Shown here: in pieces, positions 49,617 through 51,516 of the stretch | Position numbering within the stretch: the stretch's first letter is position 1 | Layout of the letters: each line of letters begins with the position of its first letter | Source of the DNA: Pedobacter glucosidilyticus DSM 23534 | GTDB lineage: Bacteria; Bacteroidota; Bacteroidia; Sphingobacteriales; Sphingobacteriaceae | DNA length: 64,000 nt | Reading direction: 5' to 3' | NCBI RefSeq assembly: GCF_000425145.1 | Contig: NZ_KE384313.1 | Span: 62,001 to 126,000 of the forward strand | Position numbers and translations under genes: made by a program | Notes under the pieces: generated by a model | Seen by the model: only the letters and a program-made list of their open reading frames with translations | What the model was told of the DNA's origin: nothing | The model's database searches: none

Positions 49617-49650
49617 AAAACCTGCAAACCAAATATTTGCAGGTTTTTTT
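49617..49650 (+). terminator. Intrinsic terminator after the tRNA pair
   Basis: AAAACCTGCAAA pairs with TTTGCAGGTTTT (12 bp) around a short loop and is followed by more T. It closes the tRNA unit. Confidence 0.85.
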
Positions 49651-49744
49651 GTTTACGTTAATTATGATTAAAGCCATAGCGAAAAAGCCCCATAAGAACA
49701 ATAAAGGTGTCTTTTTCGAATAGATTGTTGAATAATATCTATGA

Positions 49745-49860
49745 TTATGCGCTCCGCTATGATTATTCGCTCTGCTATGATTATGTCGCTCCTCTGGAGC
49801 TAAACAATATATCCTAATTGATTCTATGATTATTTCGCTCCGTAGGAGCTGAAATAACGT
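49745..49860. repeat. GCTCC hairpin repeats (REP-like) upstream of the transposase
   Basis: Four related units of the form TATGATTAT-x-TCGCTC. Two carry hairpins: GCTCC-TCT-GGAGC near 49789-49801, and GCTCC-GTA-GGAGC near 49842-49854. The other two keep only the left half. They resemble repetitive extragenic palindromes. Confidence 0.65.
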
Positions 49861-50001
49861 TTTAATATCTGATTGAATATTTCGTTTATTAATTTATGTT
49901 TTAGAAAAAAGAAAATATAGTATATTAACCTATAGATTTAAAAAATATTCTATATATCTCTTTAATAACCCTATAGAGGAGAAAACATCTCCATAAAAAC
50001 A

Positions 50002-50125
50002 AACAAAAAAGCCCCAGAGGGGCGACATCTTAATAGAAAAAAATAACAATAATCCAAAAAGCCCCAGAGGGGCGACATCTTAATAGAAAAAAATAACAAC
50101 AATCCAAAAAGCCCCAAAGGGGCGA
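50002..50125. repeat. 50-bp direct repeats with GCCCC hairpins
   Basis: The hairpin GCCCC-AGA-GGGGC occurs at 50011-50023 and 50061-50073, and a variant GCCCC-AAA-GGGGC at 50111-50123, spaced exactly 50 bp apart. The whole 50-bp unit is repeated almost perfectly. The block ends 18 bp before the transposase ATG, so it lies in its leader and is a likely substrate site. Confidence 0.85.
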
Positions 50126-50143
50126 AATTAAAAAACAAATCAA

Positions 50144-50605
50144 ATGGCCAACACCTACACCCAAATATATTTACATATTGTGTTTTCTGTGAAAGGAAGA
50201 CAAAATCTAGTTCTAAAAAACTGGCAAGACGAATTGCACAAATACATCTGCGGAATTGTAAACGCAAAGGAACAAAAAGTATATGCCATTGGCGGTATGC
50301 CTGATCATATACACATCCTACTCAGTATAAAACCTAACATCGCTATATCTGATTTAGTGCGAGATATTAAAGCAAATTCATCAAAATGGATTAACGAAAA
50401 AAGATTGATAACCGGTCTTTTTCAGTGGCAAGAGGGCTATGGTGCATTTTCTTATTCAAAATCTCAACTAGATACGATTATCGCATACATTAACAACCAA
50501 GAACAACATCATGAAAAGAAAAAATTCAGAGATGAATACTTGGAATTACTTCAAAAGTTTGATGTAGAATACGATGAGAAATATCTTTTTGAATGGATAG
50601 ACTAA
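50144..50605 (+). CDS. IS200/IS605-like REP-associated tyrosine transposase (RAYT)
   Basis: A 153-residue single-strand DNA transposase of the Y1 (HUH) family. The HUH pair is in GMPDHIHILLSI (His55, His57) and the probable catalytic Tyr is Tyr104 in GYGAFSYSKSQLD. Length matches TnpA. No tnpB and no clear insertion-sequence ends accompany it; instead it sits next to hairpin repeats, as RAYT proteins do with REP elements. It could be a domesticated enzyme that spreads REPs or a short IS200 copy. Confidence 0.88.
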   Translation: MANTYTQIYLHIVFSVKGRQNLVLKNWQDELHKYICGIVNAKEQKVYAIGGMPDHIHILLSIKPNIAISDLVRDIKANSSKWINEKRLITGLFQWQEGYGAFSYSKSQLDTIIAYINNQEQHHEKKKFRDEYLELLQKFDVEYDEKYLFEWID

Positions 50606-50739
50606 TAATTGCCCTAAACATTAAATGATACGCAAAATCATTCATTTTAGTTTCCCTAAAATCGTACTTTCAAAAAATCTAGGTTAATTTATTTTGATTT
50701 TTACCTGTACTGTCTTTTACAAACTTCTTTATTAATACA

Positions 50740-51516
50740 TCAAAAAGATTTAAAAAAATCTATGATAACTGTATTCGCTTCTTGAGGGTACTCATGCCCC
50801 CCAGGATAGCTATAAACAATACTAGGGTTACCACTTGTGGAGTGATAAAGCTTCGCAAATTGATTGATATTCTTACCCACAGTTTCACATTTGTTTTTCT
50901 TTAATAGCGCCTGATAAGTGATTTTTTGCCATGTAGGTTTTACCAAAGGATCTTTTTCTCCAATCAAATGAAAAAAAGGTTTTGGCTCTAATAAATGCAG
51001 TAATTTAAGTGCTGCTGCACCAGTTGGGGCAAATGCCTTAAAAATAGCCCCCCTTGTTGCCCATAGCAAGTAAGTAAAAGAGCCTCCGTTAGAGTGTCCT
51101 GTAGCAAAAACTCTATCCTGATCTACCATGTATTCTTTTTTGATATAGGCTAACATGATATCAAAAAAAGCTAAATCTCTATTTTGCTTATTAGTATCTA
51201 TTAACCATCCATTTTTTTTGCCTTCTTTATCTGTAATTTGTCCAGGTGTGGGTAAACCTTGTGGATAAATATATATGGCATTGTTCCACAATTGTTCAAA
51301 TTTACGACCTTGGTAAGCGTGATTCATGGTACCGCCATGTCCGTGGAAAATAAATACCACAGGGGTAGCTTTATTTTTTGCAGAAGCAGGAATATAAACT
51401 AAAGCTTTACGCATTTCTTTACCTACTATCCATTCTAAGGTTTGGAGTTGCGTTTGAGCGTAAGCTGAATTTAAGGTACCAAACCCTATAAATAATAAAA
51501 GTAACCTTTTAAACAT
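50740..51516 (-). CDS. Exported alpha/beta hydrolase (PHB depolymerase/feruloyl esterase-like, LpqC type)
   Basis: A 258-residue hydrolase with a signal peptide (ending SAYAQ). The oxyanion region is VVFIFHGHGGTMNHAYQ, the nucleophile is Ser in ATGHSNGGSFTYLLW, the Asp lies in IGEKDPLVKP and the His in YPGGHEYPQ, forming the catalytic triad. The family cleaves polyester or feruloyl ester bonds; substrate unknown. It is downstream of the PAS kinase on the same strand, 42 bp away. Confidence 0.87.
   Translation of the reverse strand: MFKRLLLLFIGFGTLNSAYAQTQLQTLEWIVGKEMRKALVYIPASAKNKATPVVFIFHGHGGTMNHAYQGRKFEQLWNNAIYIYPQGLPTPGQITDKEGKKNGWLIDTNKQNRDLAFFDIMLAYIKKEYMVDQDRVFATGHSNGGSFTYLLWATRGAIFKAFAPTGAAALKLLHLLEPKPFFHLIGEKDPLVKPTWQKITYQALLKKNKCETVGKNINQFAKLYHSTSGNPSIVYSYPGGHEYPQEANTVIIDFFKSF

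Follow-up and report, generated by a model that had tools for sequence, protein, structure and literature searches.

Hairpins and gene at the locus

We analysed a 64,000-nt stretch of the Pedobacter glucosidilyticus DSM 23534 genome (the window), in which a tnpA-like gene is preceded by a run of short hairpins. The features of the locus are as follows.

49650..50745 (approximate), no strand: block present in the window and in the congeneric genome G091, missing from the corresponding locus of G108 and G075 (locus alignment)
49739..49774, minus strand: two 18-nt half-elements (tail plus half hairpin; repeat family D3), which we read as degenerate remnants
49775..49800, minus strand: inverted tagged element, hairpin GCTCC-AGA-GGAGC, tail GACATAATCATAG (covariance model R1, 32.6 bits; one of the 67 model elements)
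49824..49849, minus strand: inverted tagged element, hairpin GCTCC-TAC-GGAGC, tail GAAATAATCATAG, 49 nt from the preceding one (R1 24.8 bits)
50011..50036, plus strand: tagged element 1, hairpin GCCCC-AGA-GGGGC plus tail GACATCTTAATAG (R1 37.2 bits, E 1.2e-6 in the window; same sequence as element 2, which is in the model)
50037..50060 and again 50087..50110, plus strand: 24-nt spacer from TAG to the next hairpin (sequence)
50061..50086, plus strand: tagged element 2, sequence as element 1 and 50 nt after it (R1 37.2 bits; one of the 67 model elements, hence a match by construction)
50111..50128, plus strand: gene-proximal hairpin GCCCC-AAA-GGGGC with a shortened tail GAAAT and without TAG (R1 16.4 bits over model positions 1-18, E 0.08)
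50144..50605, plus strand: tnpA-like HUH/Y1 gene, 153 aa (ORF; Y1_Tnp 104 bits; IS200 model 78 bits; AF2; fold match)

The three hairpins directly upstream of the gene (GCCCC-AGA-GGGGC twice, then GCCCC-AAA-GGGGC) start at 50011, 50061 and 50111, and these coordinates confirm the exact 50-bp spacing (50 + 50) that an earlier sequence-only reading had reported. The gap to the gene, given there as 18 bp, measured 20 nt, as 50123 is the last position of the third hairpin and the ATG lies at 50144. Compared with the first 50-nt unit, the second is 92% and the third 76% identical.

When hairpins were defined by a perfect 5-bp stem with at least 4 G/C and a 3-nt loop, positions 49788-50123 held 5 of the 6 found in the whole window; each of 20 block-shuffled windows held 0-3 in total. 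Two of the five belong to the inverted tagged elements at 49775-49849, which the earlier reading did not mention. The 50/50-spaced triple is the only one in the 64 kb. Folded as single-stranded DNA, the leader forms three hairpins (z = -5.2), and none of 200 shuffles folded as well. The window hairpins are far above chance. They form an upstream arm only; a downstream hairpin of this type is absent from the window copy.

The enzyme

The 153-aa protein matches Pfam Y1_Tnp at 104 bits and passes the NCBIfam IS200/IS605 transposase model NF033573 (78 bits, cut-off 55), but it fails the RAYT model NF047646 (32.4 bits, cut-off 80). Its motif residues are D54-H55-I56-H57, W95-Q96 and Y115-x3-Q119-x2-H122-H123, with a C-terminal helix at 128-138. 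The catalytic motif is thus Y---Q--HH of class 1 and not Y---NP of RAYTs. Since the RAYT model failed and the motif differs, the label RAYT, under which the enzyme had first been described, has to be dropped. It shows the motifs printed for TnpA_Y1 subclass 1.2 in Table 1 of PMC6006769 (DH[IV]H, WQ, Y---Q--HH) and the C-terminal extension.

In the alignment behind the AF2 model (73 sequences: the window and 72 of the 80 relative loci introduced below), Y115 is invariant and Q119 nearly so; the mean pLDDT of the model is 94.4. The nearest solved structures, by sequence as well as by fold, are the ISDra2 and IS608 TnpA proteins (Z 13.0 and 12.9 over 108 residues). The REP transposase 4er8 gave a fold match with Z 10.4 over 127 residues.

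Ten ORFs of at least 80 aa lie at 45-55 kb of the window, and all but tnpA and an antisense ORF over the leader were scanned. No TnpB family match was found in these eight, so that the absence of tnpB reported earlier holds among the scanned neighbours. They match a GTPase with KH domain, an alpha/beta-hydrolase, a PAS histidine kinase, an SDR, DUF7033, UPRTase and ROK, and one has no match. The genome contains three Y1 matches, and the other two are diverged rather than near-identical copies. A second, shortened Y1 gene on contig C36 (L002 1340-1460) has a different leader repeat, CCACAGGTTTTACCTGTGG, with copies ~32 bp apart.

History of the locus

Among 17 other genomes of the genus, three (G091, G108 and G075) align on both sides of the locus. 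G091 has the same locus, with a gene 87% identical, flanks 97% and 89% identical, and one plus-strand hairpin versus three in the window. Its gene copy (L014, contig C9) loses the reading frame at about residue 26, near the 5' end, whether by decay or by sequencing error. In G108 and G075, ~50 bp separate the aligned stretches, compared with 1137 in the window (identity 92% on the tRNA side and 73-75% on the hydrolase side). As the block is present in the window and G091 and missing from the other two, it was either acquired before these two species diverged or lost from the others. As to the earlier statement that the gene has no clear IS ends, no conventional left/right end pair was seen, but the gene-less locus of two close relatives indicates that the block came or went as a whole. 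Domestication of the enzyme, also proposed in the earlier reading, is at most a possibility given the frameshift in the copy shared with G091.

With G091 set aside, the homologues nearest to the gene (80-82% identical, within the best 80 of 564) lie in MAGs named Bacteroidetes, Chitinophagales and Bacteroidota; other copies from the own genus, among the matches listed, are at most 59% identical. That the MAG homologues are the closer ones suggests a horizontal arrival. Plasmid records matched in 123 cases, two of which stand out among the matches listed (55% and 41% identity over the full query), and 15 phage records matched, with 24-30% identity among the matches listed. In Chryseobacterium and Flavobacterium, several copies (L055, L057, L059, L071, L101) seem to lie after one and the same upstream gene end, so the gene may hold a fixed position in these genomes.

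An ordinary low-copy IS200-like insertion sequence might leave a similar record. Its ends would be the hairpins, dispersed copies would be MITE-like deletion derivatives, and nothing would be domesticated. The ~1.1-kb block missing from two close relatives fits this account, as do the frameshifted G091 copy (decaying IS copies look alike), the nearer homologues in MAGs of other Bacteroidota, the passed IS200 model and the nearest structures. We nevertheless consider it unlikely, because the other two Y1 genes of the genome are not copies, because the ends are inverted and do not form a left and a right end on one strand (orientation counts below), and because tandem tagged units are not IS ends.

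A tagged hairpin beside related genes

With an alignment of 15 relatives as the query to named genomes, we collected relative loci (best 80 of 564 confirmed). They are mostly from Bacteroidota, with some from Ignavibacteriota, Verrucomicrobiota, Planctomycetota, Poribacteria, Desulfonema and Jettenia. Across the 80 loci, short GC hairpins reach ~10/kb within 100 bp on both sides of the gene, compared with 0.15-0.16/kb at 4-10 kb.

These loci define a tagged element, made up of a 13-nt hairpin (5-bp stem, 3-nt loop) and a 13-nt tail that ends in TAG (tail nt 11-13). TTRTAG-like words start exactly 7 nt past the hairpin in 133 of 144 word matches. Conversely, a hairpin lies exactly 7 nt before T[TAG]RTAG words in 101 of 287 cases on the gene-pointing strand and 44 of 168 on the other; offsets 6 and 8 gave under 3, compared with the 101 at offset 7 on the gene-pointing strand. 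Sites picked by the tail alone had all 5 stem pairs in 117 of 389 cases versus 0-2 with slid arms, and every stem position shows several pair types.

We then compared the 70 loci that have 500 bp on each side (10 of the 80 were dropped) with 118 control positions ~5 kb from the gene. A tagged hairpin occurs within 500 bp at 60/70 loci versus 2/118 controls, a complete 47-57-nt hairpin pair at 51/70 versus 0/118, and tagged hairpins on both sides of the gene at 35/70 versus 0/118; since the 80 loci had also served to derive the TAG rule, the weight rests on the control and not on the rate alone. At 28/70 loci the hairpins on both sides point at the gene, and at 10/70 a tagged hairpin is absent. 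For loci of the family (28 of 30, with two contig-end loci dropped and the window's own included), the respective numbers were 20/28, 13/28 and 4/28 for a tagged hairpin, a pair and both sides.

Of 220 tagged hairpins near relatives, 0 have a GT[AG]G motif at the 5' foot or up to 2 nt away from it; hairpins of the window type are not canonical REPs. Two other assignments were tried and rejected. CGTC-tagged repeats were ruled out by the CGTC tag at 0/220 tagged hairpins, and a terminator by the tail, which by eye has no T-run.

Spacing and orientation

The geometry of the element is exact. Among the 124 hairpin pairs measured, 50 consist of identical hairpins and 42 of hairpins that differ at 3 or more positions; the centre-to-centre distance from a tagged hairpin to the next was 47-57 nt in 40 of the former and 39 of the latter. 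One spacing in unlike pairs means that tandem duplication alone is insufficient. In pairs picked at 45-58 nt spacing, the spacer after TAG in relatives is 21-31 nt long (mode 24) and shares little sequence; the exceptions, counted back from the next hairpin, are A at -1 (86%) and T at -4 (47%).

This bears on the idea that the 50-bp array arose by slipped-strand duplication of one hairpin unit. Two of its three units are nearly identical, and a single inter-hairpin deletion would yield the one plus-strand hairpin of G091. Duplication leaves the same spacing in unlike pairs across phyla (39/42) unexplained, and we regard it as possible but somewhat doubtful. As it concerns copy number, it is compatible with the interpretation that we favour below.

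Tagged hairpins are directed toward the gene rather than away from it, in 80 versus 21 cases upstream and 77 versus 34 downstream. The gene-proximal upstream hairpin has no TAG in 43 of 45 cases, so an untagged proximal hairpin is the rule in relatives.

According to another explanation, the leader is regulatory: mRNA or DNA hairpins would control the expression of tnpA, and similar hairpins elsewhere would be unrelated. The available part of PMC3733652 does suggest that REP hairpins may down-regulate RAYT expression, and the proximal hairpin lies within 60 nt of the gene 5' end in 45 of 77 upstream flanks. However, 54 of 79 flanks have a hairpin as near to the stop codon, in inverted orientation, and tagged elements also occur far from the gene. 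Additionally, a 91-nt RNA with the proximal hairpin folds little better than its shuffles (z -1.3; 21 of 200 as good). Regulation as the whole explanation thus appears highly improbable.

Specificity of the association

The element is associated with one set of TnpA relatives. Beside 20 weaker matches of the family search (33-42% identity), a tagged hairpin was found in 1/20 cases, a pair in 0/20 and any hairpin in 6/20; the Y---Q--HH motif is present in 18/20 of these paralogs. In a protein tree of 41 members of the window's group (the window and every second locus) and 19 paralogs (one of the 20 has no readable protein), the two sets part with one change, on a branch of low support (68/67). 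One weaker paralog forms a long branch.

Hairpin and protein also vary together. Among the 68 tree rows with a tag, in a tree with modest supports, the tag type follows the protein tree with 21 changes versus 33-44 in 300 shuffles, and the stem foot with 5 changes versus 13-21.

Elements elsewhere in genomes

An exact-string search for the hairpin tail hit 1 of 301 family genomes, namely the window's own. As it was too strict, we replaced it with a covariance model, R1, built from 67 elements of 149 candidates that had been picked for perfect stems and TAG. Whether the hairpin occurs only in the window depends on the search: the exact pattern in the genome is limited to the three window copies, but R1 recognized, besides four window elements, two more on contigs C18 and C33. 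In a scan of 14 genomes R1 matched in 9, and the three without the gene have none. G172 and G286 gave no R1 match (up to 150 candidates scored in each), although the gene is present.

We surveyed the 301 family genomes with 25 candidates scored per genome and a strong gene match defined as E <= 1e-38. Among the 78 genomes that have such a match, 41 contain elements at E <= 0.01, versus 22 of the 223 others, and at least 3 elements occur in 34/78 versus 10/223; these totals include elements beside the gene, and the contrasts are inflated because genomes and loci are related. The remaining 37 of the 78 had no R1 match at E <= 0.01 among the 25 candidates scored in each. Element-bearing genomes without a strong gene match numbered 22 of 63; one of these, G234, which has no gene match, contains hairpin arrays and at least 25 elements. 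On its contig C32 (L206), four tagged hairpins with a period of ~49 nt lie beside further palindromes.

Gene-less copies are dispersed in some relatives. More than 1.5 kb from the gene (80 loci, 1025 kb), we counted 49 element-like sites versus 11 in a reversed control, with 16 of the 49 in one locus. In G293, 16 of 20 stretches around R1 matches hold the order hairpin, tail, TAG, spacer, hairpin, and 15 also contain a mirror half after a short spacer. This four-hairpin miniature element has the anatomy of the gene flanks minus the gene. About 10 of the 16 copies share an outer flank and the rest do not. In G191 and G269, 13 of 20 stretches hold a pair that faces outward. Two inverted hairpins in one dispersed unit, as in REPINs, are thus present in the relatives G191, G269 and G293, with element borders that vary between genomes. 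The likeness to the gene flanks, with the gene replaced by a short spacer, is also what deletion derivatives of an ordinary insertion sequence would show.

A search for empty sites via palindromic outer flanks succeeded in 0 of 8 genomes, and 25 relatives of G269 held more element copies with no orthologous empty site readable. On contig C26 of G091 (L160 2590-2940), tandem ~236-bp units each contain a hairpin-TAG-hairpin pair and a CGCAGAGTTCGCAGAGG segment; because this is a tandem array, it offers no clean junction against the window's genome (G000), G108 and G075. The window genome's own contigs C33 and C18 (L145/L146) end in the same ~236-bp repeat. In G269, two other dispersed repeat families (L157 411-554 and 607-786) lie beside the hairpin element.

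Proposed mechanism and its meaning

These results lead us to regard the locus as probably part of a REPtron-like system in which an IS200-type TnpA with the subclass 1.2 motif is accompanied by its own class of hairpins. The window copy is a member of this system with an upstream arm only. Thus, the suggestion that the enzyme lies next to its own hairpin substrate was right in substance, with the hairpins as the probable substrate.

By analogy with IS608, we predict that a TnpA dimer recognises the hairpins in folded single-stranded DNA and cleaves at TAG or directly beside it. TAG is situated 13 nt 3' of a hairpin, and another hairpin follows ~24 nt further on. In IS200 terms, the hairpin that precedes a TAG would resemble a right end and the one that follows it a left end, and the TAG would mark the place where a right-end cut and the next left-end cut coincide. 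Such cuts would mobilise hairpin units and four-hairpin miniature elements in trans, and the tnpA gene itself would stay low-copy.

A bolder version, which we think improbable, treats the ~50-nt unit (TAG, 24-nt spacer, hairpin, 13-nt tail, TAG) as a complete single-hairpin transposable element. One hairpin would then serve as the left end for the preceding TAG and as the right end for the following one; TnpA would excise the unit as a ~50-nt single-stranded circle and integrate it beside another TAG, which would produce tandem arrays of fixed period. If true, few known mobile DNA units would be as small.

The window copy is modest, and the main interest lies in the family of relatives behind it. 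The published survey, in its available portion, leaves subclass 1.2 Y1 enzymes without a substrate, with neither IS ends nor REPs (PMC6006769). A defined and widely shared element of hairpin and TAG would supply one, and REPtron-like systems would then also exist on the IS200 side of the family tree. With the 153-aa protein and a ~50-nt oligonucleotide, it becomes possible to test directly how transposases turn into genes that mobilise hairpins.

Comparison with known systems

IS608 and ISDra2 are similar in fold (Z 12.9-13.0), in their short hairpins and, if TAG is the cut site, in the layout of cut site and hairpin. As far as the accessible text of PMC5934647 describes it, IS608 TnpA is a dimer whose left-end cleavage falls 3' to TTAC, ahead of the left hairpin, and whose right-end cleavage falls at TCAA. 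The system described here differs in the lack of a single-strand LE/RE pair, of tnpB among the scanned neighbours and of visible guide pairing, and in its inverted arms. A cross-table inspected by eye gave no pattern of guide/tag complementarity as in IS608. End hairpins of one orientation that bound the gene, as in IS200/IS605, were not found, and the arms are mostly inverted in relatives.

PATEs and MITE derivatives of IS200/IS605 are likewise gene-less, miniature and palindromic. Compared by description, they are unlike the four-hairpin tagged anatomy found here. In the main text of open-access journal papers, those that contain one of the hairpin sequences are by title not about repeats, no paper links MITEs and IS200 with Flavobacterium, and none of the REPIN and RAYT papers listed deals by title with REPs of Flavobacterium.

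REPtrons with their RAYTs (REPs, REPINs, BIMEs), as outlined in the available part of PMC8266576, share with our system an HUH/Y1 gene flanked by palindromes that recur across the genome, also as inverted pairs. The differences are a class 1 enzyme, no GTAG at the foot, TAG in the 3' tail and a fixed ~50-nt spacing. Dispersed palindromes of the kind that flank the gene, typical of RAYTs, were found in relatives; the window's own genome has two further tagged elements only.

By its motifs, low copy number and occurrence in Bacteroidetes, the enzyme resembles TnpA_Y1 subclass 1.2, which the available tabulation of Quentin et al. 2018 (PMC6006769) lists without REP and generally without typical terminal structures. 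The paralogs that carry the same motif without tagged hairpins fit this statement. The difference lies in the relatives of the window gene, with tagged hairpins at 60/70 loci compared with no REP in that tabulation.

Di Nocera et al. 2013 (PMC3733652), in the portion available, describe TIRtrons, i.e., RAYT-like genes flanked by inverted repeats, some of which are doubly palindromic and dispersed. Some TIRs are self-complementary or 'double palindromic' and belong to dispersed families, as dimers or clusters; the same text mentions CGTC-tagged repeats in Bacteroidetes. The idea that a Y1 gene can have palindromic repeats of its own other than REPs is therefore already in print. The likeness lies in inverted repeats that are not REPs; in our relatives they point at the gene from both sides at 28/70 loci, and the window has no downstream arm. 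TIRYTs, as described there, are RAYT-like by motifs and come from other species (Stenotrophomonas, Acidobacteria and others), whereas our enzyme fails the RAYT model. Their shared motif GGGGWSAS lies near 3 of the 220 tagged hairpins, in a comparison based on the text description of TIRs. Thus, the TIRtrons of RAYT-like genes are the nearest precedent, and what is new, as far as our searches reach, is the IS200-type enzyme group, the element of hairpin and TAG, and the ~50-nt rule.
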